This document shows, in pieces, positions 5,606-25,185 of a stretch of DNA of 64,000 nucleotides. The notes beneath the pieces were generated by a model. It worked only from the letters and a program-made list of their open reading frames with translations, was not told the DNA's origin and searched no databases. Every line of letters starts with the position of its first letter. Within the stretch, counting starts at the first letter, position 1. Position numbers and translations under genes: made by a program. The DNA comes from Streptomyces paludis (GTDB lineage Bacteria > Actinomycetota > Actinomycetes > Streptomycetales > Streptomycetaceae): assembly GCF_003344965.1 (NCBI RefSeq), contig NZ_CP031194.1, positions 62,001-126,000 on the forward strand, read 5' to 3'.

Positions 5606-6571
5606 ATGGCCTCAGCTGTGGCGCAGGACCAATCAGGCGCGCCGCCCCGGGCACCCGTCCCGCCGGCCGCCGAGAAGCCGGCCCGGCGTACGGGAATATC
5701 GGACCGCCGCCTCCCGTATCTGCTCATCGCCCCCGCCGGGCTGCTCATGCTGGGCTTCATCGCCTATCCGATGCTCAGTGTCTTCTACTACAGCCTCCAG
5801 AACTACAACCCCACCAAACCCTGGCGGAACGGCTTCGCGGGACTCGACAACTTCCGGCGGATCTTCACCGACGACCCGCTGTTCTGGGACAGTCTCGCCT
5901 TCAGCGCCAAGTGGGTCGCCGCCGAGGTCTCCCTCCAGCTGGCCTTCGGACTGATCCTGGCACTGCTGGTGAACCAGACCTTCGTGGGCCGGGCCGTCGC
6001 CCGCGCCCTGGTGTTCTCGCCCTGGGCGGTCTCCGGTGTGCTGACCACGACCATCTGGCTGCTGCTCTACAACCCCTCGACGGGCGTGGGGCGTTACCTG
6101 GCCGACGCGGGCATCGGAACGTACGGCTCCTCCGTGCTCTCCGACACCGGCACCGTGTTCTGGGCCGCCGTACTGGCCGAACTCTGGCGCGGCGTACCGT
6201 TCTTCGCCATCCTGATCCTCGCCGACCTCCAGTCCATCCCCGGCGATCTCTACGAGGCCGCCTCGGTGGACGGCGCCAACCGGTTCCAGCAGTTCTTCCA
6301 CATCACCCTGCCCCATCTGCGGGACGCGATCATCCTGTCCACCCTGCTCCGCGCGGTGTGGGAGTTCAACAACGTCGATCTGCTGCTCACCCTCACCAAG
6401 GGCGGGCCCGCCGGGGTCACCACCACACTGCCGCTGTATGTCGCCGTCACCGGCTTCGAGGCACACGACTTCGGCTACGCGACGGCGCTGACCACCGTCG
6501 CCTTCGGCATCCTCCTCTTCTGCTCCATCCTCTATCTGCGCCTGAGCAAGTTCGGAGGCGACCGCAAGTGA
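5606..6571 (+). CDS. Sugar ABC transporter permease, MalF/UgpA type
   Basis: 321 aa inner-membrane permease with six predicted helices; the first is around LLIAPAGLLMLGFIAYPML. The EAA loop reads EAASVDGANRFQQFFHITLP. It pairs with the next gene (4-base GTGA overlap) and probably with the binding protein at 10941. No ATPase is encoded nearby. The start ATG is preceded by a GGAG-containing stretch. The operator at 5573 suggests it opens a transcription unit running through the oxidoreductase and PmoA-family genes. Confidence 0.92.
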   Translation: MASAVAQDQSGAPPRAPVPPAAEKPARRTGISDRRLPYLLIAPAGLLMLGFIAYPMLSVFYYSLQNYNPTKPWRNGFAGLDNFRRIFTDDPLFWDSLAFSAKWVAAEVSLQLAFGLILALLVNQTFVGRAVARALVFSPWAVSGVLTTTIWLLLYNPSTGVGRYLADAGIGTYGSSVLSDTGTVFWAAVLAELWRGVPFFAILILADLQSIPGDLYEAASVDGANRFQQFFHITLPHLRDAIILSTLLRAVWEFNNVDLLLTLTKGGPAGVTTTLPLYVAVTGFEAHDFGYATALTTVAFGILLFCSILYLRLSKFGGDRK

Positions 6572-7479
6572 CCGCCGCCATCGCCGAGAAGGGCGCACCC
6601 GCCGCGCCGGCCCCCGGCACCGCACAGCCGCCGCCCGTACGCGGGCGCCGCCGCCGGCGCGAGCGCGCCTTCGACGAGGTGCCGCGGTGGCAGATCTATC
6701 TGCCGCTCGGCCTCTATCTCCTCTTCACCCTGGTGCCCTTCTACTGGATGCTGCTCTTCTCGCTGCGCCCCGCGGGCTCCGACTCGCTGGTGCCGTGGCC
6801 GATGACCTTCGACCACTTCGCGAAGGTGTGGAACGAGCGGGCGTTCTCCGTCTTCTTCCAGAACAGCGCCCTGATCGGGGTGGGCACCCTGATCTGCACG
6901 ACGGGCGTCGCGCTGGCCGGCGGCTACGCGCTGGCCCGCTTCGACTTCCGGATCAAGCAGGGCTTCATGCTGGCGCTGCTGTGCTCCCAGTTCATCCCGG
7001 GCGCCCTGATGCTCGTGCCGCTCTTCCAGATCTTCAAGAACCTCCAGCTGATCAACTCCCCGCTGAGTGTGGTGATCGCGGAGACGGTGTTCCAGCTGCC
7101 CCTGTCGATCATCCTGATCAGCGGCTTCATCAGGAATGTGCCGTACTCGCTGGAGGAGGCCGCCTGGGTCGACGGCTGCTCACGGCTCCAGGCGTTCCGT
7201 ATCGTCGTCCTGCCGATGCTGCGGCCCGGTCTGATCGCCGTCGGCTCGTTCGCCTTCGTGCACAGCTGGAACCACTTCCTGTTCGCGCTGATGTTCCTGA
7301 TGGACGGCGACAAGCAGACGATCCCGGTCGGGCTGTCGACCCTGATCGGGGCCGACAGTGTGGACTTCGGGGCGCTGGCCGCCGGCGGTGTGATCTCGGC
7401 CGTGCCGGTGGTGATCGTCTTCGCCTTCATCCAGAAGTGGCTGATCAGCGGATTCAGCGCGGGGGCGGTGAAGGGATGA
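6568..7479 (+). CDS. Sugar ABC transporter permease, MalG/UgpE type
   Basis: 303 aa partner permease starting at a GTG that overlaps the previous stop. An Arg-rich cytoplasmic tail (about 35 residues) precedes the first helix. The EAA loop is EAAWVDGCSRLQAFRIVVLP, which places it in the MalG-like CUT1 group for oligosaccharides. It overlaps the next gene by 4 bases. With 5606-6571 it should form the heterodimeric membrane channel of one importer. Confidence 0.92.
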   Translation: MTAAIAEKGAPAAPAPGTAQPPPVRGRRRRRERAFDEVPRWQIYLPLGLYLLFTLVPFYWMLLFSLRPAGSDSLVPWPMTFDHFAKVWNERAFSVFFQNSALIGVGTLICTTGVALAGGYALARFDFRIKQGFMLALLCSQFIPGALMLVPLFQIFKNLQLINSPLSVVIAETVFQLPLSIILISGFIRNVPYSLEEAAWVDGCSRLQAFRIVVLPMLRPGLIAVGSFAFVHSWNHFLFALMFLMDGDKQTIPVGLSTLIGADSVDFGALAAGGVISAVPVVIVFAFIQKWLISGFSAGAVKG

Positions 7480-8624
7480 GCCTGCCCGTCGTCCTCGCCG
7501 GGGCGCGCGGCCACGGCCGCTCGCATCTCGTGAACATCCGCCGCCTGGAACAGGCCGGGCTGGTACGGCTCGTGGGAATCTGCGAGCTGCGCCCGCTCGG
7601 CGCCGAGGAGCTGGAGGGCTTCGGCGAGCCGGCGCAGTCCGCCGACCTCGGTGAGCTGCTGGACCGTACGGGGGCGCGGCTGGCCGTGATCTGTACCCCG
7701 ATCCACACGCACACGGAGCTGGCGCTGACCGCCGCCGCGCGCGGTGCGCACACCCTGCTGGAGAAGCCCACCGCGCCGTCGTTCGCCGAGTACGAACGGC
7801 TGCTGGCCGGGCTCGCCACGTACGGCACGGCCTGTCAGATCGGTTTCCAGTCACTGGGCTCGCTCGCCGTGCCCGCGATCGGGGAGCTGATCGCGGACGG
7901 TGCGATCGGGACCGTGCGCGGGATCGGCGCCGCCGGGGCGTGGGCGCGCGACGAGGCGTACTACACCCGCGCGCCCTGGGCCGGGCGCCGCACCCTGGAC
8001 GGGCGGGACGTCGTGGACGGGGTGCTGACCAATCCGCTGGCCCACGCCCTGGCCACGGCGCTGCGCATCGACGGCTCCGACGGGGCGGGCGATCTGGCCG
8101 GGGTGGAGCTGGAGCAGTTCCGGGCCAATGACATCGAGGCCGACGACACCACCTGTCTGCGGCTGCGCACGGCCCGCGGCACCCGGATCACGGTGGCGGT
8201 CACCCTCTGCGCGGAGGAGCCCGGGGAGCCGTATGTGGTGGTCCACGGGACGAGCGGCCGGATCACCTTCTGGTACAAGGAGGACCGGGTGCTGGTGCAG
8301 CGGGTCAACCGGGGCCCCGAGCAGATCGTGTACGCGCGCACCGATCTGCTGGAGAACCTCGTCGCGCGGGTGACCGAGGGCGACGAGCTGCTCGTACCGC
8401 CGGAGCGGACCGGTGCCTTCACCCGGGTCGTCGAGTCCGTACGGACGGCGCCGCTGCCCGTACGGCTGCCACCGGACGCCTGGTACGGCGCGCCGGGCGG
8501 GCAGGGGCCGCGCCGGGTCGTACGGGGCGTGGACAAGCTGGTGGCGCGGAGCGCGGAGTCCCTGGCCACCTTTTCCGAGCTGGGCGCGGGCTGGGCCGCG
8601 CCCCCTGCGGAGGTGCACTCATGA
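7476..8624 (+). CDS. Gfo/Idh/MocA family NAD(P)-dependent oxidoreductase
   Basis: 382 aa cytoplasmic sugar dehydrogenase-type protein. The Rossmann-fold glycine motif is degenerate (GARGHG, residues 9-14), and the family signature EKPTA is at 96-100. The C-terminal half is the expected alpha/beta substrate domain. It is coupled on both sides by ATGA overlaps between permeases and a PmoA-family gene, so it probably oxidises, reduces or epimerises the imported sugar or its acid. The substrate is not readable from sequence. Confidence 0.88.
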   Translation: MSLPVVLAGARGHGRSHLVNIRRLEQAGLVRLVGICELRPLGAEELEGFGEPAQSADLGELLDRTGARLAVICTPIHTHTELALTAAARGAHTLLEKPTAPSFAEYERLLAGLATYGTACQIGFQSLGSLAVPAIGELIADGAIGTVRGIGAAGAWARDEAYYTRAPWAGRRTLDGRDVVDGVLTNPLAHALATALRIDGSDGAGDLAGVELEQFRANDIEADDTTCLRLRTARGTRITVAVTLCAEEPGEPYVVVHGTSGRITFWYKEDRVLVQRVNRGPEQIVYARTDLLENLVARVTEGDELLVPPERTGAFTRVVESVRTAPLPVRLPPDAWYGAPGGQGPRRVVRGVDKLVARSAESLATFSELGAGWAAPPAEVHS

Positions 8625-9598
8625 GGAGCCGGCCGAGCGTTTCCCCGGTCGCCGGGGCGACGGTGCTGCACTGCGACGATCTGGCCGTGGCGACCTACGC
8701 CCACCGTACGGACCGGCCGCACCGGCCGAACCGGGCGGACCGTACGGACCTGGCCGACCGGGCCGACCGGGCGTCGCTGCCGACGGCGACGGCGACGGTC
8801 GCCGCCCCGGCGCACGCGGCGCGTCCGTATCTGCATCCCGTGCGGACGCTCGGCGGGGTCACGGTGACGGAGCTGCGGCCCGCCGACCATCCCCACCATC
8901 TGGGGGTGTCCATGGCGGTGCCGGATGTCGCCGGCACCACCTTCCCGGGCGTCAACTTCTGGGGCGGGCGCACCTATGTGCGCGACCGGGGGCCCGTGGA
9001 GCTGGACAACCACGGTACGCAGGAGCACACCGGCTGGCTGCTGCGGGACCCCGACGGCTGTGTGCAGGAGCTGTCCTGGTCGCGCCGGGGCCGGGAGCTG
9101 CTCAGGGAGCGGCGGACGATCAGCGCGCTGGCGCTCTCGGACCGGGCCTGGTCCCTCGACTTCACCTCGGCGCTGACCAATGTGTCCGGCGAGGATCTGT
9201 CGGTGGGCAGCCCGGCGACCAACGGGCGTCCGGGGGCCGGTTACGGCGGCTTCTTCTGGCGGGCGCCCCGGCCGGGTCCGGACGAGCCGGCGCCGGACGT
9301 GTTCACCGGGGCCGCGACGGGCGAGGAGGCGGTGCACGGGCGCAGCGCCGACTGGCTGGTGCTCGCGGGGCGGGGCTGGTCGCTGCTGTTCTGCGGCGGG
9401 AACGCCGAGACCCGGGCGGACCCGTGGTTCGTCCGCACCACCGAGTATCCGGGGGTGGGCTCCTCGCTGGCGTGGGAGCGGCGGCTGCCGCTGCCCGCGG
9501 GCGGGACCACCGCCCGGCGGGTGATCACCGTCGTGGTGGACGGCCGGCTCGACCGGCCGGCCGCGGCGGCCCTGGCCCGCAGGGCGGTGACCGCCTGA
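8621..9598 (+). CDS. PmoA / DUF6807 family protein
   Basis: 325 aa protein of the family annotated PmoA or DUF6807, recognised by DHPHHLGVS (about residue 90), NFWGGRTYV and the late FFWRAP block. No signal peptide, so probably cytoplasmic. Biochemical function is unknown; the family is often next to Gfo/Idh/MocA dehydrogenases and sugar importers, as here, suggesting a sugar-modifying role. Oddity: residues 28-50 are an Arg/Asp-rich imperfect repeat (DRTDRPHRPNRADRTDLADR), probably an expanded loop. Confidence 0.75.
   Translation: MRSRPSVSPVAGATVLHCDDLAVATYAHRTDRPHRPNRADRTDLADRADRASLPTATATVAAPAHAARPYLHPVRTLGGVTVTELRPADHPHHLGVSMAVPDVAGTTFPGVNFWGGRTYVRDRGPVELDNHGTQEHTGWLLRDPDGCVQELSWSRRGRELLRERRTISALALSDRAWSLDFTSALTNVSGEDLSVGSPATNGRPGAGYGGFFWRAPRPGPDEPAPDVFTGAATGEEAVHGRSADWLVLAGRGWSLLFCGGNAETRADPWFVRTTEYPGVGSSLAWERRLPLPAGGTTARRVITVVVDGRLDRPAAAALARRAVTA
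8702..8773 (+). repeat. In-frame degenerate repeat inside the PmoA-family gene
   Basis: Imperfect tandem copies of a CCGTACGGACC / CCGACCGGG-type 9-12 bp unit, encoding an Arg/Asp-rich low-complexity stretch. It resembles the short intergenic repeats elsewhere in the window. Confidence 0.5.
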
Positions 9599-9646
9599 GC
9601 GCCGTTCCGCCGCGCCGTACCCGAATCCTGTGAGGAGAGAGCCGCA

Positions 9647-10813
9647 ATGACGCACTCGCACCCGCACACCGACACCACTACTCACACTGACACCGGCACC
9701 GGCACCACTGCCGGCTCTGACACCGGCACCCGCTCCCTCGCTTCCGCGCGCACCGCGGCCGTCGGCCTGGCCGCGCTCGCCGCGCTGCTCGCCCCCTTGG
9801 TCTCCGCGCCGTCGGTGGCGATGGCCACCGAGCGGTCCGCCGGGGCCGTCCTGCACGTTCCCGCCGACTACCCCACCGTCCAGTCCGCCGTGGACGCCGT
9901 GCCGGCCGGGAACACCGAGCCGGTGACGATCGCCCTCGCCGCGGGTACCTACCGGGAGCAGGTCCGGATCCCGGCGACCAAGCCGCATCTGCTGCTCAAA
10001 GGCGCGTCGCGGGACCGGTCGCGTACGGTCATCGTCTTCGACACGCCCAACGAGTACGGCGGTTCCAGCGGCAGCGCGACCGTGCTGATCGCGGCGAGCG
10101 ATGTCACCGCCCGCGATCTCACCTTCGTCAACGACTTCGACGAGGCGGCGCACGACGTGGCCAACCCGCAGGCGCTGGCGATGAAGACCACCGGGGACCG
10201 GATCGTCTTCGAGAACACCGCCTTCAAGGGCAACCAGGACACCCTGATGACGGACAGCCCGGCGCTGACCCGGCTGAGCCGGGTCTATGTCCGCGACTCG
10301 TACATCGAGGGCGATGTGGACTTCCTCTACGGGCGGGCCACCACGGTCGTCGAACGCTCCCTGATCAAGGCGCTCAGCCGGGGCTCGGACACCAACAACG
10401 GCTATCTGACGGCCGCTTCGACCTGGAAGGACAACCCGTACGGTTTCCTCATCACCCGTAGCCGGGTGATCAGCGACGCGCCCGCGGGGACCTTCCATCT
10501 CGGCCGGCCCTGGCATCCGGGCGGCCAGCCGGACGCGATCGCGCAGGTGCTCTTCCGTGACACCGAACTGCCGGCCGCCATCAAGTCCGAGCCGTGGGCG
10601 GACATGAGCGGCTTCTCGTGGAAGGACGCCCGGTTCGCCGAGTACCGCAACTACGGTCCGGGCGCGGGCATCACGCCCGACCGCCCGCAGCTGACGGACG
10701 CCGAGGCGGCGGTCCACGAGGTCGCCGACTATCTGGCGGGCCCGGACGGCTGGGCGCCGCAGAACTCCGTACGTGCCCATGGCACGGCTCACGGACACAG
10801 CGCACACCACTGA
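9647..10813 (+). CDS. Secreted pectin methylesterase (CE8)
   Basis: 388 aa beta-helix pectinesterase that removes methyl esters from homogalacturonan outside the cell. A strong GAGGAG lies 8 bases before the ATG. An unusual Thr/His-rich leader (about 30 residues) precedes the signal-peptide core near 35-60. Family motifs are present in order: GNQDTL and GDVDFLYG (the catalytic aspartate blocks) and HLGRPW (substrate-binding Arg/Trp). The C-terminal tail is His/Gly-rich and runs into a simple-sequence region. De-esterified pectin would be the substrate for lyases or hydrolases. Confidence 0.92.
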   Translation: MTHSHPHTDTTTHTDTGTGTTAGSDTGTRSLASARTAAVGLAALAALLAPLVSAPSVAMATERSAGAVLHVPADYPTVQSAVDAVPAGNTEPVTIALAAGTYREQVRIPATKPHLLLKGASRDRSRTVIVFDTPNEYGGSSGSATVLIAASDVTARDLTFVNDFDEAAHDVANPQALAMKTTGDRIVFENTAFKGNQDTLMTDSPALTRLSRVYVRDSYIEGDVDFLYGRATTVVERSLIKALSRGSDTNNGYLTAASTWKDNPYGFLITRSRVISDAPAGTFHLGRPWHPGGQPDAIAQVLFRDTELPAAIKSEPWADMSGFSWKDARFAEYRNYGPGAGITPDRPQLTDAEAAVHEVADYLAGPDGWAPQNSVRAHGTAHGHSAHH

Positions 10814-13260: not shown

Positions 13261-14994
13261 TCAGGTCAGCAGGTCCAGGCAGTCGAAGGAGGTGCCGGGG
13301 CTCAGGAAGCCGGAGCCGGTGGAGCCGCTGACCACGTTCACCTTCAGCACGTTGTACTGGCCCGTGTCCGTCTGCCAGGCGGAGGCGGGCACGCTGTAGG
13401 TGAAGGTGTTGTTGTTGCCGCGGTAGGAGCCGGTGGTGAGCGAGCGGGTGGAGGGCTGGGTGGGCGGTGAGGGGATCGCCGACACCCAGCTGTTGACGGT
13501 GATCCGGGGGCGGGCGTTGATGTAGGCGGTGGTGACCCCGATCCGCAGGGTGTGCGCGGCGGCGGCCTGGGCCGCGGTGAGCCTGAAGTAGACGAGGATC
13601 CCGTCGTTGACGCCCGACCAGATGTAGCAGGGGAAGGACGCCGTCTCGCCGCTGCCGATCACCACGTTCCCGGTCCAGGCGGCGGCCCGTATGTCCGAGG
13701 GGTGCGCGTACGTCATGAGCTGGGCGTTCTTGAAGCCGGCCGGTGTGCCGCTCCAGTTGTTGATGCGCCAGATCGCCGGGGCGGCGCTCGGGTCGTTGGT
13801 GATCGTGAGGGTGTTGAGGGCCGTGGCGTTGCCCGCGGTGACGGTCACCGAGGTGGTGTGCACGGCGAGTTCGCCCTTGTAGACGGTCAGTGTGTAGGTG
13901 CCGGGCAGCATGTTGGGGCAGGAGTACGCGCCGTTGGACGCGGCGGCCGGGGCCCAGTACTGGGCGTTGGCGTTGGCGAAGCCCACGGTGTACGGGTAGG
14001 CGGTGTCCCGGCCGGCGATGCCCACGCCCGCGACCCGGCCGCGGGCGCTCCTGCCGACCCAGCCGGAGATCCCGAGGCCGTCCACCCAGGAGGTGTCGAG
14101 ATTCGCGGCGTACAGCGAGGAGGCGGGCGCGCCGCCGTTGGTGAAGCTCAGGACGTACGGGCCCTGGAGGCCGAAGCGTTCGGCCTCGGTCTGGGCCTGG
14201 TTGTAGTGCAGGATCTCGTAGAGTCCGACGCCGTTCTCGTTGGCGTGGCGCAGCAGTGAGCGGTAGAAGGGGCCGCCGGACGCCTTCTCGTGGTTGCTGC
14301 GGACCATCCAGAGGCCGACCGAGCCGGTGGTGTAGCCGATGTAGTCGTAGTCCATGACCCGTACGCCCGAGTAGTGCTTGGAGCGGGTCTGGCCGCCGGA
14401 CTGCCGGTAGACGTCGGACGCCTCGATGACGGCGTCGGACGACTCCACCCAGCCGTCGGGGGCGTTGTTGGGGAAGATGCCGGGCTTGAGCCGGACGATG
14501 TAGCGGGTGGCGGTGAACGAGGTGTCGGCCTTGTTGGTCCAGAGGTACACGTTGTTCTCACCGCTGCGGGCCGCGTAGTAGTGGCGCAGTGTGCCGTGGA
14601 CGACGGAGACGAGGATGGTGGAGCCGGACTGCGCGATGCTGACGGTGGAGGCGCCGAGTCCGGACTCGACGTGGGAGTGCGCGCCTCCGTACCCCTCGTA
14701 CTCGGTGGTCCCGTAGACCAGTGAGGTCAGGTCGCCGGTGCTCTTGGAGACCTTGAAGACGAGGCTGGCGCCGGTGCTGATGACGTAGTTCGCGCCGTCG
14801 TCGGTGTAGCCGAAGGCCGCCGCCAGCGCGGGGGTCGCGGTGAGTCCGGTGACGGCGGCTCCCGCCGCGACGGCTCCGGCGGCGGTGGCGCCGAGGACGG
14901 CGCGGCGCGAGGGGTGCCGGCGGGCGGTGGCCGTCGGCTCGGCGGACACCGGATCCGCGGTCGCCGGACTCGTGGTCGGAGGGTCGGTAGCCAT
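13261..14994 (-). CDS. Secreted rhamnogalacturonan lyase (PL4-like)
   Basis: 577 aa enzyme expected to cleave the rhamnose-galacturonate backbone of RG-I by beta-elimination. ATG 14994 follows GGAG by 7 bases. Residues 28-60 form a Tat signal (SRRAVLGATAAG). The N-terminal beta-sandwich is the catalytic part, with the conserved block NHEKASGGPFYRSLLRH (H235 a candidate catalytic residue). A short Fn3-like carboxypeptidase-regulatory domain and a C-terminal galactose-binding-type sandwich follow, the usual three-domain PL4 layout. Exact catalytic lysine not assigned. It is paired functionally with the acetylesterase. Confidence 0.85.
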   Translation of the reverse strand: MATDPPTTSPATADPVSAEPTATARRHPSRRAVLGATAAGAVAAGAAVTGLTATPALAAAFGYTDDGANYVISTGASLVFKVSKSTGDLTSLVYGTTEYEGYGGAHSHVESGLGASTVSIAQSGSTILVSVVHGTLRHYYAARSGENNVYLWTNKADTSFTATRYIVRLKPGIFPNNAPDGWVESSDAVIEASDVYRQSGGQTRSKHYSGVRVMDYDYIGYTTGSVGLWMVRSNHEKASGGPFYRSLLRHANENGVGLYEILHYNQAQTEAERFGLQGPYVLSFTNGGAPASSLYAANLDTSWVDGLGISGWVGRSARGRVAGVGIAGRDTAYPYTVGFANANAQYWAPAAASNGAYSCPNMLPGTYTLTVYKGELAVHTTSVTVTAGNATALNTLTITNDPSAAPAIWRINNWSGTPAGFKNAQLMTYAHPSDIRAAAWTGNVVIGSGETASFPCYIWSGVNDGILVYFRLTAAQAAAAHTLRIGVTTAYINARPRITVNSWVSAIPSPPTQPSTRSLTTGSYRGNNNTFTYSVPASAWQTDTGQYNVLKVNVVSGSTGSGFLSPGTSFDCLDLLT

Positions 14995-15043
14995 GGGGGG
15001 ACTCCAACGGTAGGCGGGTGCGGGGGGCTTGGGGCGTGGGAAC

Positions 15044-15076
15044 GCGGAGGGAGGGTGAGTACGCACCTCCCTCCGC
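15044..15076 (-). terminator. Hairpin downstream of the 1525-residue protein gene
   Basis: 11-bp perfect inverted repeat (GCGGAGGGAGG with CCTCCCTCCGC) around an 11-base loop, about 100 bases past the stop of the large gene and before the lyase start. Probably terminates the former and separates the two transcription units. Confidence 0.65.
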
Positions 15077-15176
15077 ATCCCCTGGTCGCCGCCGCCCGCG
15101 CCTTGGTTGCCGCGGGTTCAGAAGTTTTTTCCGAGACCGGTGGGGCGGGTGGGGCGGACCCGGTACGGGGAAGGTG

Positions 15177-18100
15177 TCACTCCTCGTCGGGCAGGTAGGA
15201 CCAGAACTCCACCTCCCCCAGGTTGACCCGCCCGTCGTGGTTGTCGTAGATCCGGATTCTGCGGTACGAGGCCGTGCGGCCGAGCGCGACCTCGTACCAC
15301 TGGGCGGCACTCACACCGCTGATGGTGTGCAGGTCGGTCCAGGTCAGGCCATCGTCGGAGCCGCGGAACACCGTGCCGTTGGCGCGGGCCAGCTGGCCGG
15401 CGCGGGGGTGGAAGCGGATCTTGTCGATGGTGATGGGGCCGGCCGTTCCCGCGTCGATGTCGACCCAGCTCTCGGCGGCCAGTGTGTCGGTGTAGGTGGC
15501 GGGGTCGCCGTCGAAGAGCCGCCAGCCGTTGGACGCCTTGGTGCCGGTGCCCGGCCATTCGACGGTGGACGCCTCGACCATGTCCCTGGTGACCGAGAAC
15601 CGGGTCAGCAGGGTGTCCGTGGAGACCAGCAGGGCGTACGCGGCGTAGACCGCGTCGACGCGTGTCTCCTGGTCGCCGCCCGCGCGCTCGATCCGGTCGA
15701 TCTCGGCGGTGAAGGCCGCGTAGCTCTTCTTCGTCCAGGCGGCCCGGTCGGTCGCGCGGGCGCGTGCGATGACCTCGGCCAGGGTTTCGGCGACCGCGAG
15801 GGCGCTGTCCTCGGAGACCCGGGTGCCGCCGTCGGCGAGGGTCGCCACGACCTTGAACCAGCGCTTGCCGTGGCGCAGTTCCTTCTCCGTGTAGGAGCGT
15901 TCGCGGGTGCCGGTGACGGCCTTCTCCCAGCCGGCCGGGCGGGTGCGCGGGTCGGTGGCGGCGGTCTTGGCGTCGGCGGTGCGGTGGACGGTGAAGGCGA
16001 CGGCGTCCTCGGGCTTGTTCCAGGCGACGGTGAAGCGGTCGGCGGTGTGTCCGGCCACATACGGCCGGAGCGCGCCGCCGGCCGTGCCGGTCACCTTGAC
16101 GGCGGTGAACACCGCGCTGCCACTGGACGCGACGCCCGCGTGCACCGCGTACGGGAACGGGGTGAAGAGCGCGCCGACATAGGTCCAGGTGGTGCCGTCG
16201 GCGGAGGCGTGGGCGATCACCTGGTGGGTCTCGTAGTCCCGGACCAGCCGCAGATGGGGGTGGTCGGCGGCGGTGAAGCCGGAGATCCCGGCGTCGAGCG
16301 GGGAGCGTATGTCGTCCTGCCAGTCGTGGCGGCTGTCGCGGGTGCGGTTGGCCAGGACGAGCTTTCCGGTGGCGTCGGCGCCGAAGTAGAGGTAGCGGGT
16401 GTCGGGGTGGAGGCGGTCGCGGAGCATCAGCCCGGTCAGCGCGCCCCGGCGGTCGTCGACGCGGGCGGTGACCGTACCGCTGCCGGCCAGGACGCGGCTG
16501 ACGAGCAGCAGGGAGTCCTCGATGTCGCGGGTGGCGACCATGTAGTCGTCGCCCTCGCCGAGTCCGGTGCCGTCGCCGCCGGTGACGGCGATGGTGGCGC
16601 CCCCGCCGGAAGTGGTGCTGTGGAGGGAGGTGGTGCCGCGCCGCTGGGAGCCGAGCCTGTCGTCGCGCCAGCCGGTGCCGGTCAGCCGCCGGGACACGGG
16701 CGCGTCGAGGGTGACGGCGGCGCGCCAGGAGGACCAGCCGGTGCCCGCGCCGTTGACGGCGGTGACGGTGTAGAAGTACCCGCTGCCCCGCTGGACCTTG
16801 GTGTCGTGCCAGGCCAGTCCGGTGAGACCGGTGGCGACGGTGGTGTACGGGCCCTCGGCGCGGGGCGCCCGCTTGACGGTGTAAGTGGCGGCCCCGGCGG
16901 TGGGCGTCCACGCGACGGTGATCGAGGTGTCGGCCGGCAGGGCGGTCACGTACCGTACGACGGACGGCAGTGGCGCGGTGGTGGCGGTGTCGGAGAGTTT
17001 CAGGACGACGGCGGTGAAGGGCTCGACGGTGATGTGTCCGCCGGTGATCCGGAGGTTCTTGCCGGAGACGAGGTCGAGGACGGTGGACCCCCGGTGGTTC
17101 GCGGGGACGGCGAGCCGGTAGGTCTGCTTGTTGCCGTACGCGGCGCGGGTGGTGTTGACACCGAAGAGATAGGTGCCGTAGCGGGCGGTGAGGAAGTCGG
17201 TGTAGCCGGAGAAGGGGGTGTCGGCCTCGAAGTTCTCGCGGCGGACCGTACCGATGCCGGGCTGGTACGCGATGGGGCAGATCTCCCCGGCGAGCGCCTG
17301 CGGGGCCCAGTTGTCACCGGTGTTGATGTCCTCCATGAAGTCGGCGTCGATGGCGTCCATCCGGGCGTAGTAGTCCCGGTACTGGAACAGCCCGTTGGTC
17401 TGGATCTGCACGACGTGTTCATGGGTCGGTGTGATGACGTGCAGCCGGCCGTTGCCGGCGACGCCGCGGTTGCTCTGGTAGAGCGAGCCGAAGATCCGGG
17501 TGTCGCCGTCGCGCAGCGAGACGAACATGTTGTCGACGTCGATCCAGGCGAAGCGCTGGTAGTCCGTGTCCCGTACGCCCAGCGCGGTGAGTTCGCCGCC
17601 GGTGTAGGCGCGGAAGTCGGTCTGCGGCATGACCTTGCCCGCCTGCGCCGTACCCAGGCGGCTGTGCCGGGCGCGCCCGCCGGTGAGGTGGGCGTAGGTG
17701 TCGGGGAGCCGCAGATCGGCCTTGGGGTTGGCGGTGACCTGGGCGAATCCGTTGAAGTACTGGCGGTCGGCGAGCTGTTGCTGGGCGAAGCCGACGGCCT
17801 CGCGGGCGTACTCCCAGTAGGGCGCCCACTCGGAGCCGCGGTAGCGCTCCGCGTGCCGCGCCATGTGCGGCTCGAAGCCCGAAGTGAACAGTGACTGGCC
17901 CTCGTTGATGCGCGGGCCGTAGGCGGGGATGCCCGGCCAGTACCAGTTGCGCTCGTCGATGGAGCCGATGATCCGCATGACGCGGTTGCCCTTGTCGTCG
18001 ACGGACGCGTAGCGGGTGTAGCCGCGGGCGTGGACGTTGCGCAGCGCCAGTTTGAGGATGCGGTCGTTGAGTTCCTCGTCGCCCCGGTGGCCCCAGGTCC

Positions 18101-19754
18101 TGAAGAAGTACTCACCGATGTAGCGGGACGCCTCGCCGTAGTTGCCGACGTAGGTGTTCTCACGGGTGAGTCCGGCGGCGGTGATGCCGGTGTAGTGCTT
18201 TCCGTACGGCAGCCGCCGGACGACGTGGCCGGCGCGGTCGAGCTTGCTCTTCGCGAGGCCCTTGCCGACGATGTTGACGTACGCGTCGGTGAAGCGCGCG
18301 GTGCCGTCGTGGTAGAAGAGCGAATGGAACAGGTCCAGTTCCTCCTCCTCGGGCCCGACCAGGACCTCTTCACCGAGGAACGGTACGAGGCCGAGCGCCT
18401 CGCCCAGGATGGCGTGGCTGCGCGCCCGGCCCTCGTAGAAGGCGGAGCCGATCACCCGCAGGCCCTCGTGGGCCTTCCAGGCGCCCTCGTACGTGTAGAA
18501 CATCTGGTTGTAGATGTACGAGAGGCGGGAGCGCGCGAAGTCGAAGTTGGCCTTGAGGCAGCGGCCCCAGGCGGCGCGCCGGGTGAGCCGCCCGCCGTCG
18601 AGGTCGACGCCCTTGATCGAGTCGGCGCCGTCCTGTGTGCCGGTGGTGAACTCCTCGTCCAGGAAGGCCGTGAAGGCGTCGGCGCCGTACACCTCCGGGT
18701 CGGCGATCACGTTCTCCACGAGGTAGAGGGCCTCGCCGAGGGCGCCGTAGTAGCCGCCCCAGTCGCCCTGGTGGCCGCCGCGCAGCACGAGCCGGGTGTT
18801 GCCGTAGTAGTCCTTGACGTGGTTGTCGACGCTCTTGAAGATCCGCAGCAGGGCGGCCCGGCGTTCCGCGGCGGTGGCCGCGGGCGACCACTCGGTGGTC
18901 AGCGCCTGTGCGTAGTAACGGAGTTCGTCAACATAGCGGACGATGGACATCCTGCCGGTGGCGGCCGCGTCGACCTGGGCCGAGAGCCGGTTGAAGAGGG
19001 CGATCTGGGTGGTGCGGAAGCCGTCGACCAGCTTCTGTTTCTCGGTGTCGGAGAGGTCGTCGGCGAGCGCGGTCGGCGGCCGGTAGGTGGTGAGGTTCTC
19101 GCCGGAGAGGTCGAGCCGCGCGTCGGTGTGGGTGTACACACCGTAGTAGGGGCGGGAGTTCTGGGTGACCTTGCCGGAGAAGCTGCCCTCGTACGTCCGC
19201 AGGGTGATCTCGGCCCGGGACCGGCCGCGGGTCATCTCCAGGGGCAGCAGCACCGTGGAGTAGTGGAAGCGGCCGGGCACCTGGCCCGAGAAGCCGAAGC
19301 TGATGGCCGGTGTGTCGTGGTTGCGGCGGTAGCCGATCTGCTCGCCGTTGATGTAGGCGAGCGTGGTGTAGGCGGAGCCGTCGTCGCCCCACAGCTTCAG
19401 GGTGAGGTAGTTCTGCGCCTGGGGATCGGTGCGCAGGGTGAAGCGCAGCTCACCGCCGCGCGCCGCGACCGGGTCGAGCGGGGTGGCGGTCCGGGCCTTG
19501 ACCCCGTTCCCGCCGGTGACGATCTCGCTGCCGTCGGTGGTGAATCCGTGGGCGGCCTCGGAGGCGGTGTCGCCCAGGACGAGTCTGTCGATCAGCCCCG
19601 CCGGCTTCGGCCCGGCGGGGCCGGTGGCGGTGGCGGACTCGGCGGCGTACGCGGCGGGCGCCGACTGCCAGAGCCAGCCGCTCGCGGCCGCGGCGGCGCT
19701 GCCGGCACCGGCTATCTGGACGAAGTTCCGGCGGCTGAGTTCTGCGCTCGGCAT
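15177..19754 (-). CDS. Giant Tat-exported multidomain carbohydrate-active protein
   Basis: 1525 aa. A Tat signal (SRRNFVQIAGAGSAAAAASG) ends near residue 38. Rough order from sequence texture: beta-sandwich 55-215; a long helical region 220-700 resembling the (alpha/alpha) toroid of polysaccharide lyases, rich in Tyr/His/Asn (GGHQGDWGGYYGALGEAL, NYGEASRYIGEYFF); beta-rich segment 720-880; Fn3 about 890-985; LamG-like or concanavalin-type sandwich about 990-1175; a second Fn3-like domain; a FIVAR helical domain about 1280-1335; a C-terminal F5/8-type-C carbohydrate-binding domain about 1345-1520. Catalytic family not recognised. The pectin context suggests rhamnogalacturonan or side-chain cleavage, but a glycosaminoglycan-type lyase or a hydrolase is also possible. 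Confidence 0.8.
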   Translation of the reverse strand: MPSAELSRRNFVQIAGAGSAAAAASGWLWQSAPAAYAAESATATGPAGPKPAGLIDRLVLGDTASEAAHGFTTDGSEIVTGGNGVKARTATPLDPVAARGGELRFTLRTDPQAQNYLTLKLWGDDGSAYTTLAYINGEQIGYRRNHDTPAISFGFSGQVPGRFHYSTVLLPLEMTRGRSRAEITLRTYEGSFSGKVTQNSRPYYGVYTHTDARLDLSGENLTTYRPPTALADDLSDTEKQKLVDGFRTTQIALFNRLSAQVDAAATGRMSIVRYVDELRYYAQALTTEWSPAATAAERRAALLRIFKSVDNHVKDYYGNTRLVLRGGHQGDWGGYYGALGEALYLVENVIADPEVYGADAFTAFLDEEFTTGTQDGADSIKGVDLDGGRLTRRAAWGRCLKANFDFARSRLSYIYNQMFYTYEGAWKAHEGLRVIGSAFYEGRARSHAILGEALGLVPFLGEEVLVGPEEEELDLFHSLFYHDGTARFTDAYVNIVGKGLAKSKLDRAGHVVRRLPYGKHYTGITAAGLTRENTYVGNYGEASRYIGEYFFRTWGHRGDEELNDRILKLALRNVHARGYTRYASVDDKGNRVMRIIGSIDERNWYWPGIPAYGPRINEGQSLFTSGFEPHMARHAERYRGSEWAPYWEYAREAVGFAQQQLADRQYFNGFAQVTANPKADLRLPDTYAHLTGGRARHSRLGTAQAGKVMPQTDFRAYTGGELTALGVRDTDYQRFAWIDVDNMFVSLRDGDTRIFGSLYQSNRGVAGNGRLHVITPTHEHVVQIQTNGLFQYRDYYARMDAIDADFMEDINTGDNWAPQALAGEICPIAYQPGIGTVRRENFEADTPFSGYTDFLTARYGTYLFGVNTTRAAYGNKQTYRLAVPANHRGSTVLDLVSGKNLRITGGHITVEPFTAVVLKLSDTATTAPLPSVVRYVTALPADTSITVAWTPTAGAATYTVKRAPRAEGPYTTVATGLTGLAWHDTKVQRGSGYFYTVTAVNGAGTGWSSWRAAVTLDAPVSRRLTGTGWRDDRLGSQRRGTTSLHSTTSGGGATIAVTGGDGTGLGEGDDYMVATRDIEDSLLLVSRVLAGSGTVTARVDDRRGALTGLMLRDRLHPDTRYLYFGADATGKLVLANRTRDSRHDWQDDIRSPLDAGISGFTAADHPHLRLVRDYETHQVIAHASADGTTWTYVGALFTPFPYAVHAGVASSGSAVFTAVKVTGTAGGALRPYVAGHTADRFTVAWNKPEDAVAFTVHRTADAKTAATDPRTRPAGWEKAVTGTRERSYTEKELRHGKRWFKVVATLADGGTRVSEDSALAVAETLAEVIARARATDRAAWTKKSYAAFTAEIDRIERAGGDQETRVDAVYAAYALLVSTDTLLTRFSVTRDMVEASTVEWPGTGTKASNGWRLFDGDPATYTDTLAAESWVDIDAGTAGPITIDKIRFHPRAGQLARANGTVFRGSDDGLTWTDLHTISGVSAAQWYEVALGRTASYRRIRIYDNHDGRVNLGEVEFWSYLPDEE

Positions 19755-22141: not shown

Positions 22142-22380
22142 CAGAAAGAGAGCGCTTCGGGATCAGGTGGCGGGAGGCCGGGGGCGCACCCATGACAGCC
22201 AACCACCCACCGGCGTACGCTGGTTGGACCCGGCGAGCGGCGTGACCGCGTGAGAGCGGCGGTTCCGGGCCAACCGGGGCCCGGAGCGCCCCGGCCCGCC
22301 GGGCCCGGAACCCGGCCTTGCCGCGCCCGCCCGGTCCGTGCGGGTACGGCGGGTGCGCCCGGACGGCCGCCGTACCGGCG

Positions 22381-22551
22381 GTGCGCACCGGCGCGTCGAT
22401 ACGGAACACACCCTTCCGGGGCGCCGGGCAAGACACATTCAGGACTTTTCACCCCGGTCCGGATATCCGCGACGCCGGCCGGGGCGTGCTGGCGACCTTG
22501 GAGACGCTGCCGCCACGATGGCGGCGGAACTCCCCGAGCGTGCGCTCATGA
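22381..22551 (+). CDS. Weak candidate small ORF (possible precursor peptide)
   Basis: 56-codon frame from a GTG, with mostly G/C third positions, ending ETLPPRWRRNSPSVRS. It lies about 120 bases upstream of the HExxH gene on the same strand, where a RiPP precursor is often found. Against it: no Shine-Dalgarno site at the GTG and no recognised leader or core motif. An upstream TTG at 22318 could extend it to 77 residues. Treat as a hypothesis only. Confidence 0.15.
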   Translation: MRTGASIRNTPFRGAGQDTFRTFHPGPDIRDAGRGVLATLETLPPRWRRNSPSVRS

Positions 22552-22672
22552 CGTTGTACCCGACGCCGACGGGGAGCAACACGCGCCGTCGCACCGCGCG
22601 GTGGGCCTCCGGGTCCGCCGCGCGTCCCGTGCCCGGGCCACGGTCCCGGGCGGAGAGGGGAGTTGACGCACG

Positions 22673-23854
22673 ATGCATGTCGAGGCCGATGTACGCGGGG
22701 CCGTCGAGGACCGGCGCGAGGTGCTGGAGCGGATACGCGCGGTGCTCGACCGGGTGGAGTTCGCCGGGGCGGTCGAGACGGCCGAGTCGGGCGGGGCGGC
22801 CGAGTCGGGCGGGATCGCCGGGATCGCTGCCGCTGCCGCTGCCGGGTCCGGCACCGCCGCCGGGGCCGGGGCGCGGGCGTCCGCGCCGCCGATGTCGGCC
22901 TCCGTGTCCGATGACGTCCTGCGCCGGCCCGCCGCCATGGAGGCGGTGCACACCGCACAGCGCGCGCTGCGTTCGGGAGCGTCGGCCGCCCGGTCGCGGG
23001 CCGAGCTGGGTTCCGTACTCGACCTGCTCGCCGGCTTCGGGCCGCCGGCGTTCGGCCCCACCGGGCCCCAGGACCATCTGCGGCGCAGTGTGTCGCGCGC
23101 GCTGCGGTCCGCGGCCCCGCGCCGGGGCCGTGACGGTACGCCGGTCACCGCGCGGGTCGTCGCGTGGGACGCGGATCAGCGGCAGGTGCTGGTCAGCGCG
23201 GTCGCCCTGCTCACCGACGTCTGGCCCGAGCTGGTGGGGGAACTGGCCGAGACGGTCACCGAGGTGGCGCTGCTCGACGGCGACGCCCTCGACCGCTTCA
23301 CCGACTTCACCGTGCACGGCGCGGTCCTCGTGCACCGGAACCGGCTCACCACGGGCGCCTCGGGGCTGCCGGGGCCGGTGCGCTGCGCGGAGGCGCTCGT
23401 CCACGAGGGCGCGCACAGCCGGTACGACGCGGCGGCCGTGGCGCGGCCGTTCCTGCTGCCGGAACCGGCGGGCGGCGGTGGCGGAGGAGGAGGTGGCGGC
23501 ACGCCCGGCCGGACGGATCCGGGCGCGCTGCTGGTCACCACTCCCCTGCGGGCCGACCCCCGCCCGCTGAGCGGACTCGTCCGGCGGACCGTGGCCCTGG
23601 CGCGCTGTGTGCTGCTCTACCGCAGAATCGCCGCGCTCGGCACGCCCGGTACGCCCGGCGCACCCGGCACCCTGGAGGCGGCGGCGGTCGCGGCGCGGGA
23701 GGCCCGGCTGACCGCGTCCGCGCGGCAGGCGGTGGACACACTGACCGCACACTCCGGAGCCCTCACGGACGCCGGACGCGCGCTGCTCGACGAGTGCGCC
23801 GCCGTATCGCGGGAGCGCGAAGAAGAGCGGAAACAGGAGCAGGAGCGGCCATGA
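22673..23854 (+). CDS. aKG-HExxH-type peptide hydroxylase-like protein
   Basis: 393 aa. The family signature is ALVHEGAHSRYDAAA, with metal-ligand candidates H244 and H248 and E245, followed after a linker by the second family block RADPRPLSGLVRRTVA (about 292-307). Proteins with this domain are RiPP enzymes; characterised relatives hydroxylate peptide side chains using iron and 2-oxoglutarate. The ATG is fixed by an in-frame stop three codons upstream, and GGGGAG lies 10 bases before it. Oddities: an Ala/Gly-rich N-terminal insert (about 40-75) and a run of ten glycines (267-276). It is coupled to the YcaO gene by ATGA overlap. Confidence 0.82.
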   Translation: MHVEADVRGAVEDRREVLERIRAVLDRVEFAGAVETAESGGAAESGGIAGIAAAAAAGSGTAAGAGARASAPPMSASVSDDVLRRPAAMEAVHTAQRALRSGASAARSRAELGSVLDLLAGFGPPAFGPTGPQDHLRRSVSRALRSAAPRRGRDGTPVTARVVAWDADQRQVLVSAVALLTDVWPELVGELAETVTEVALLDGDALDRFTDFTVHGAVLVHRNRLTTGASGLPGPVRCAEALVHEGAHSRYDAAAVARPFLLPEPAGGGGGGGGGGTPGRTDPGALLVTTPLRADPRPLSGLVRRTVALARCVLLYRRIAALGTPGTPGAPGTLEAAAVAAREARLTASARQAVDTLTAHSGALTDAGRALLDECAAVSREREEERKQEQERP

Positions 23855-25062
23855 GAGCTTCCAGCACACCACGCGCCTCCGGCACCCCGGTCACGGCATG
23901 GGCGCCGCGGGTCTTCACCCCCTATCCGGATCAGCCGGGGCTGCTGCTCGCCCGGGTCGCCGCGCGCTCGGCGGTGTTCGAGGGCACGAGCGGCGCGGGC
24001 GGCGCGCCCGTGCTCGTCGGCAGCGCCGCCGGCCACGACCGGGACCTGGTCACCACCGGCGCCCGGGGCGAACTGCTGGAGCGGATGGGCAATGTGCTCG
24101 CCGGGCGGGAGGCCGAGGCCGCCGCCGGGATCGTCGCCACGTACGACGAACTCCTGCGCCGGGGCGTGCCGGTGCGCAGACCGTCCATCCGGCCACGGGC
24201 CCGCCGGCTGTGGATCCGCGCGCGGACGACCGGCGGTGAGGAGCGGTACGTCCCGGCCGCCGCCGTCTTCCTGCGCCACCGCCCGCCGACCGGGTGTGCC
24301 CCCGAGCCGTCGGCCGGCTCCACCGGTGTCGCCGCGCACCCCCACCGTGTGGCGGCGGCTCGGCACGCCGCCTGGGAGGTGCTGGAGCGCGATCTCGTAC
24401 GGCGCAGCTGGTACGGGCTCGCCGCCGGCCGGCCCCGGTGGATCGAGGCCGGCGCGCCCGCCGCGCTGGCCGGCGCGGTCCGCGCCCGGGGGCTGGCCAC
24501 GACGGCGTTCCTGCTGCCCGCGCCGTCCGGCACCGCGTGCGCCGTGGTGTGTCTGCACCGGCCGGACGGTACGGGGCAGGCGTTCGGGGCGCGCTGCGGT
24601 CCGTCCGACGCCCTCGGCACACTGATCGAGAAGGCGGCGTACGAGGCGGTCATGGTGCGCTGGAGCATGGAGAGCCCGGCCGCGCGCCGTACCTGGGACC
24701 AGTGGCGCGGCATCGGCCCGCCGACCACCGCCGTACAGCACGCGCTGTGGACCTACCACCGGCAGGACAGTCTGGCGCTGTGGAACGTACGGCGGGAGCC
24801 GGCGGTACGGGACGGCTGCCGGGCCCGGGACGGAGACCCTGCCGGGGACGGCGGCCGGGCCCGGGAGGGCGACGGGCACCGTGCCCGTACGGATCCGCTC
24901 GGCGTTCTGGCCGAACACACCGGCCAGGAGGTGCTGTTGGCCGAGACGTCCGGGAAGCCCGCCCGGGACGCCGGGGTCCGGGTGGTGCGGGTGCTCGCAC
25001 CCGGCACACTGCCACTGCCCTCCGGTCCGGGCCCCGGCCACCCCCACCCGTTCGGTCAGTGA
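23851..25062 (+). CDS. YcaO-domain protein (RiPP backbone-modifying type)
   Basis: 403 aa. YcaO hallmarks in order: GARGELLERMGN (70-81), WEVLERDLVRRSWYGL (175-190), LIEKAAYEAVMVRW (258-271), and a C-terminal VVRVLAPGT followed by a Pro/Gly-rich tail with PHPFG. YcaO enzymes use ATP to activate peptide backbone amides, giving azolines, thioamides or amidines. No E1-like partner or dehydrogenase is encoded nearby, so thioamidation, amidine formation or a partner acting in trans are all open. The short Asp/Arg/Gly-rich insert near 306-335 is unusual. Overlaps the HExxH gene by 4 bases. Confidence 0.8.
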   Translation: MRASSTPRASGTPVTAWAPRVFTPYPDQPGLLLARVAARSAVFEGTSGAGGAPVLVGSAAGHDRDLVTTGARGELLERMGNVLAGREAEAAAGIVATYDELLRRGVPVRRPSIRPRARRLWIRARTTGGEERYVPAAAVFLRHRPPTGCAPEPSAGSTGVAAHPHRVAAARHAAWEVLERDLVRRSWYGLAAGRPRWIEAGAPAALAGAVRARGLATTAFLLPAPSGTACAVVCLHRPDGTGQAFGARCGPSDALGTLIEKAAYEAVMVRWSMESPAARRTWDQWRGIGPPTTAVQHALWTYHRQDSLALWNVRREPAVRDGCRARDGDPAGDGGRAREGDGHRARTDPLGVLAEHTGQEVLLAETSGKPARDAGVRVVRVLAPGTLPLPSGPGPGHPHPFGQ

Positions 25063-25131
25063 CCGGTGGGGATCCTCGTCCACGGGCACCCGGGCCGACC
25101 GGACGCCCTCGTGGCGCACGTACAGCCGTGA

Positions 25132-25177
25132 CCCGGCCGGACGCCGTCACCCGGCCGGGCATCGTCCGCCCGGCCGG
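25132..25177. repeat. Three spaced CCCGGCCGG copies in a convergent gap
   Basis: CCCGGCCGG occurs at 25132, 25150 and 25169 (18-19 base spacing) between the convergent YcaO and DNRLRE-protein genes. The self-complementary last copy could contribute to a weak terminator. Confidence 0.4.
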
Positions 25178-25185
25178 GCTCGTGC

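Follow-up and report, generated by a model that had tools for sequence, protein, structure and literature searches.

What does an enzyme predicted to hydroxylate peptides do next to a YcaO protein, and do the two form a working unit of their own? The question arises from two overlapping genes in the window (the whole 64,000-nt stretch of Streptomyces paludis DNA analysed here, 62-126 kb in from an end of an 8.45-Mb contig). A sequence-only reading had proposed that they constitute a two-enzyme RiPP-type module with no obvious precursor, in which side-chain oxidation and backbone amide activation could be combined on one peptide. According to the accessible text of the sources, aKG-HExxH enzymes act as hydroxylases on Asp, His, Phe, Gln and Pro (PMC13060819), and YcaO enzymes yield heterocycles or amidines, or thioamides when TfuA takes part (PMC8442711; PMC13174530).

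The enzyme pair

The two genes lie where that reading had placed them, as stop-free ORFs that overlap by 4 nt (Table 1). The HExxH product matches the TIGR04267 mod_HExxH profile with 54.7 bits (curated cut-off 40; 48.8 and 62.3 bits for the relatives L030 and L041), and a Pfam profile search matched it to no family. It carries HEGAH at residues 244-248 and TPLRADPRPL at residues 290-299, has Ala/Gly-rich insertions, and reads VRR at residues 303-305 where its relatives have FQQ. Its predicted model (mean pLDDT 81.3) matches the solved HExxH domain of ChlB (ChlH, PDB 8s5f). A 17-row HExxH profile also reaches ChlH (E 7.8e-8), with HEGAH aligned to HEHRH and TPLRADPRPL to SPWREDLRPP; searching with the single sequence of the relative L028 missed it. 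By profile, motif and the fold shared with ChlH, the product is probably a TIGR04267 member, with Fe(II)/aKG-dependent hydroxylation as its predicted activity. The second product scores 65.5 bits against the PF02624 YcaO profile (gathering cut-off 25.7), and its model (mean pLDDT 84.1) matches 6ci7, 6peu and LynD with E between 1e-11 and 1.5e-8. Both original assignments have thus stood up to profile searches and to the structure prediction proposed with them.

Table 1. Features of the enzyme pair and its immediate flanks in the window
Feature	Coordinates	Strand	Basis
Precursor-gene relic	22527..22565	+	DNA pattern, six-frame motif, alignment with 6 relatives
aKG-HExxH peptide hydroxylase-like protein, 393 aa	22673..23854	+	TIGR04267, HEGAH motif
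Stand-alone YcaO protein, 403 aa	23851..25062	+	PF02624, YcaO fold match
Gap at place of relatives' class I methyltransferase gene	25063..25185	.	None called; then convergent secreted-protein gene

The neighbours called within several kb, named by reading their sequences, are an alpha/beta hydrolase, a LacI-type regulator, a secreted protein and a permease. The partner of the HExxH gene is YcaO and not radical SAM, as had been noted, and reading by eye revealed no obvious radical-SAM, E1-like or dehydrogenase gene over the same distance. Elsewhere in the window (13261-19754, minus strand), two large secreted-looking proteins (562 and 1525 aa as called) may act on polysaccharides.

Intact relatives in other actinomycetes

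An HExxH gene adjoining a YcaO gene looks rare. TIGR04267 has matches in 70 of 296 Actinomycetes genomes, PF02624 in at least 82; among the matches listed, compared by eye, only the window's two genes lay within 10 kb of each other on one contig, and as many of these genomes are in contigs some pairs could be missed. Searches with the proteins themselves recovered an intact pair at 24 further loci in actinomycetes, the window being excluded from this count. Eleven came from comparing the YcaO protein with 199 genomes of the genus (20 matched, 12 at E <= 2.5e-57 including its own). An HExxH alignment searched against 392 genomes of the genus (18 matched, 16 at E <= 1.3e-116 including its own; the weaker two were G297 at 4.6e-67 and G288 at 1.8e-17) added four, and the same alignment searched against 394 genomes of the class added two, its matches there being its own genome, G747, G761 and, weakly, G496. 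Contig records contributed five named loci (three Streptomyces, one Streptosporangium, one Nocardiopsis), and plasmid records two, from Streptomyces microflavus (L080) and Embleya (L081). Six matches among 150 relatives brought no new locus. Because all 24 were found through these same proteins the sample is not unbiased; their HExxH and YcaO proteins each differ from every other.

A survey of genome neighbourhoods, suggested with the sequence-only reading, thus returned a single order: HExxH precedes YcaO in 24 of 24 relatives. Since this order is identical throughout the 24 loci, all of them collected through the same proteins, the pairing is on comparative grounds not a chance one. In L078 (8297-10504, from G761, same genus as the window) the two are fused in one ORF of 735 aa. 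The constant order and the fusion lend support to the idea that both enzymes act on one peptide. The idea of a self-contained two-enzyme module is not supported, as a methyltransferase gene lies 3' of YcaO in every relative (22 of 22 clustered loci, L080 and L081) and is absent beside the window pair.

Clustering of the neighbours of 22 loci (without L080 and L081; L034 and L037 are truncated at contig ends) recovered YcaO and a class I methyltransferase in all 22, and HExxH in 21 plus the fusion. P450 genes occur in 13 and ferredoxin genes in seven, and, as named by reading, glycosyltransferase-like and epimerase-like genes in 14 each and one sulfotransferase-like kind in six. The usual order is precursor (mostly 24-30 aa, acidic), HExxH, YcaO, methyltransferase, often P450 and sometimes ferredoxin; the L080 record lists HExxH, YcaO, methyltransferase, P450 and aldo/keto reductase. 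The four-gene core looks like a coherent RiPP family. The L080 and L081 clusters lie on large linear plasmids of Streptomyces and Embleya, one of them typed as mobilizable, which suggests horizontal spread.

Three loci were set apart from the 24: L072, with an HExxH protein of 29.6 bits (below the TIGR04267 cut-off) and no YcaO; L079, where a radical-SAM-like gene adjoins by sequence reading; and L073, with two HExxH genes and no YcaO profile match. L073 (reverse strand, ~5714-9885) is a possible cousin cluster, holding a 39-aa peptide with C-terminal EIPESYLSHSSQLMQAD, a pair of genes that match TIGR04267 with 75 and 84 bits, next to them a protein that is YcaO-like by eye and has no YcaO match in Pfam or NCBIfam, and a methyltransferase. 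Weak YcaO matches in G080, G038, G077 and G181 were rejected as members, none resembling the family; at three of these four loci (L106-L108), sequence reading found short Cys-rich peptides nearby.

A short peptide gene precedes the pair

The flanks of homologous pairs had been recommended as the place to look for a small conserved peptide, and all 24 loci have one: a short ORF (24-50 aa) lies 74-312 nt upstream of HExxH and ends in the motif E(L/I)P(E/D)-(F/L/Y)-x-L-(M/L)-(V/I)-D-(V/I/L)-P followed by 1-3 residues. As called, 22 of the 24 are 24-30 aa long; the others, L078 (41 aa) and L040 (50 aa), are called from GTG codons lacking a GGAG-like site and may in reality begin further in. With the peptides aligned by their motif, all 24 share E(-1), P2, L6, D9 and P11, and L1, E3 and M7 each occur in 23. 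Ser, Thr and Cys are absent from the 11-residue motif in every peptide. The motif is followed by Ser in 12 peptides, by Asp in 10 and by Gly in two, and the sole Cys in the comparison (L039) also comes after the motif. On the Embleya plasmid, the precursor at L081:6725-6805, MNEVIEPVTPEELPELPLLIDLPGDQ, deviates at A5 and M7 and keeps D9 and P11. An NCBIfam search with four of the peptides returned no family.

Could these ORFs be regulatory uORFs or chance occurrences, with the enzymes modifying a protein and no dedicated precursor? The peptides are very short, five of 24 starts are without GGAG or AGGA upstream (19 have one), and the L080 record has no CDS for the peptide, the flanking locus tags RS34495 and RS34500 being consecutive. 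Set against this are the presence of the ORF in every locus, its invariant residues and its third-position variation: over 17 codons in 22 peptides, variation at positions 1/2/3 is 0.23/0.16/0.39, as in coding DNA. Such an origin is very improbable, and we treat the ORFs as putative precursor genes. The pattern [LI]P[ED].AL[ML] has 22 matches in 28 sequences (1.13 million codons), of which 21 fall in called precursors and one in the window.

The state of the window copy

That one match is the only occurrence of the pattern in six frames of the window, and none arose in 200 base shuffles of 22253-22672. A back-translated pattern (up to two mismatches) likewise has one match in the window, at 22527-22550 with one mismatch, where a mean of 0.07 is expected and 7 of 100 shuffles had a match. 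The sequence there, ELPERALMTLYPT, reads E-L-P-E-R-A-L-M-T-L-Y-P-T (ELPERALM being 22527-22550), and relatives mostly have E-L-P-E-[FLY]-A-L-M-[VI]-D-[VIL]-P-[DSG] at the aligned place. Its end would fall ~107 nt 5' of HExxH, inside the range of the relatives. The relic is without the acidic leader, the invariant Asp and any in-frame stop before 23570, and its ATG (22518) has no GGAG-like site. It retains P11 with no indel and could for this reason be a diverged gene. The earlier remark that no precursor is obvious therefore stands for the window, which has a damaged remnant only, and fails for its relatives with their conserved peptide gene.

No methyltransferase or P450 gene is among those called beside the pair. 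The best match to the L028 methyltransferase in the same genome (43% identity) is ~480 kb away at 567 kb; it sits among unrelated genes and was rejected as the missing partner. A second copy of the pair was likewise rejected, since the genome gives one match each for the HExxH and YcaO proteins. Searched with the precursor pattern, the genome gave 11 matches versus 22 for a backward control, and none of the eight loci examined of these 11 weak matches contained the full motif; the pattern has three mismatches to the relic itself, and a diverged precursor elsewhere could therefore have escaped it. TIGR04267 has two further places in this genome (G000:C1:5437509-5438036 and 1096070-1096450), one scoring 169 bits.

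The window pair may instead be functional, acting on a diverged or distant peptide and doing so without a methyltransferase. Both ORFs are open and coding-like, and by rough pairwise estimates their dN/dS exceeds that of the relatives only a little, at 0.35-0.50 for HExxH (0.35-0.41 among five relatives) and 0.31-0.45 for YcaO (0.24-0.39); the copy could accordingly still be in use, or its loss could be recent. YcaO retains the shared residue at 72 of the 74 columns invariant among 16 relatives, and its two deviations lie within the 0-8 of each relative. The HExxH motif is intact, and the FQQ block is absent from ChlH too, so the VRR change need not inactivate the enzyme. Against continued function, HExxH deviates at 6 of 57 invariant columns (G208R, C251Y, F303V, Q304R, Q305R, V308A), a count that none of the 16 relatives reaches (0-5), the relic has no Asp, no GGAG-like site at its ATG and no stop before 23570, and no methyltransferase is called beside the pair. 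We consider continued function unlikely; the window most likely holds an orphaned, decaying copy, the odd one out among the loci. In trees from a short search it clusters with five Streptomyces relatives (SH-aLRT 99 for HExxH, 96 for YcaO) and has the longest end branch of the group (0.54 and 0.40; L070 0.49 and 0.32), the long branches of the YcaO tree calling for caution. Comparison of the loci thus shows a four-gene core with a conserved putative precursor and one fusion, and in the window an apparently damaged precursor and an absent methyltransferase.

Comparison with known RiPP systems

The family has partial counterparts among known systems. PflC/PosC, PesO and BpmH are aKG-HExxH proteins of RiPP clusters for which the available text mentions no radical-SAM fusion (PMC12636437, PMC13060819, PMC12257519). 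Unlike the present loci, their clusters hold MNIO enzymes, with no YcaO mentioned in that text. Clusters of the streptamidine type share with the family a stand-alone actinobacterial YcaO and short, often unannotated precursors without Ser/Thr/Cys-rich regions (PMC8442711, as far as available). The same text gives their precursors as 31-89 aa and describes a major subset with iron-transporter, hydrolase and dehydrogenase genes, whereas precursors here are mostly 24-30 aa and accompanied by HExxH and methyltransferase genes. Among 15 features of L080 (an incomplete table with three hypothetical proteins) there is no iron-transporter or hydrolase gene, and by precursor length and gene content the present clusters appear to lie outside the streptamidine family.

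Azol(in)e RiPPs of the SagD/TruD/LynD type have the YcaO fold in common with the family. They differ in that the window YcaO scores only 59.3 bits against TIGR03604 SagD (cut-off 219.25) and that the conserved precursor motif is without Ser, Thr or Cys. An E1-like/RRE partner and a flavin dehydrogenase are absent from the conserved core, HExxH, YcaO and methyltransferase being the only genes in all 22 clustered loci. TfuA is absent beside YcaO, the flanks being HExxH (fused in L078) and methyltransferase in all 22 and in L080. As judged from these genes, the clusters resemble neither azol(in)e (LAP/TOMM) nor thioamidated (YcaO-TfuA) RiPP clusters.

A possible chemistry

With no Ser, Thr or Cys in the conserved motif, ordinary azoline formation is excluded there, and for an oxazoline to form a different enzyme would have to supply the hydroxyl. 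In the route that we favour, the Fe(II)/aKG-dependent HExxH enzyme would oxidise a residue of the L-(M/L)-(V/I)-D-(V/I/L)-P segment, most likely at the Asp beta-carbon. YcaO would then use ATP to activate a backbone amide in the same segment, which the new hydroxyl or another nucleophile could attack, possibly with cyclisation, and the methyltransferase would methylate the resulting product. Hydroxylation of the core followed by YcaO cyclisation is preferred, as an unproven proposal, because an oxazoline needs the added hydroxyl and because phenyl-oxazoles offer a precedent: those of YM-216391-type RiPPs derive from hydroxylated Phe. A study has reportedly described the curacozole cluster and its Phe-specific peptide hydroxylase. 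More specifically, and only tentatively, HExxH may place the hydroxyl on the invariant Asp, or else on the Val/Ile next to it, and YcaO may close this hydroxyl onto the preceding amide, giving an oxazoline without Ser, Thr or Cys. Asp is known as an aKG-HExxH target from the accessible parts of two papers (PMC12636437; PMC13060819).

In the intact family, HExxH may instead cleave the peptide oxidatively, or YcaO may form a thioamide or amidine. According to the text available, aKG-HExxH enzymes can also cleave the peptide backbone, PflC/PosC cutting at a C-terminal ARMD tetrapeptide (PMC12636437), and the conserved segment here is C-terminal as well. YcaO is required for the streptamidine amidine, in a family whose precursors are without Ser/Thr/Cys-rich regions (PMC8442711, in part). 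Speaking against these outcomes, the conserved core is without a hydrolase, and for a thioamide no TfuA-like gene adjoins YcaO, consecutive tags in L080 being HExxH, YcaO, methyltransferase and P450. They form a less probable, though live, alternative to the favoured hydroxylation and cyclisation. Overall, we put at about 0.6 the probability of the following reading: other actinomycetes carry an intact RiPP core, which would work by oxidation, YcaO activation and methylation, and the window has an orphaned and probably decaying copy of it.

Novelty and significance

In the literature searched, mostly without subscription papers and without supplements, aKG-HExxH was not found together with YcaO, and the precursor motif strings did not occur. 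Among papers naming HExxH, YcaO and RiPPs, those listed describe no such gene pair in their available text, and one paper, on Pseudomonas Os17, came up for TIGR04267 and related names. The RiPP family is apparently undescribed, and the supplementary networks of PMC8442711 may list its peptides.

The window copy itself, as an orphan, is of lesser importance than the family to which it points. This family combines a very small precursor with a fixed four-gene core, and some members have P450, glycosyltransferase or sulfotransferase genes nearby. Its natural HExxH-YcaO fusion and its core free of Ser, Thr and Cys make it testable what a YcaO enzyme does without its usual nucleophile, and raise the further question of whether an oxygenase supplies that nucleophile.
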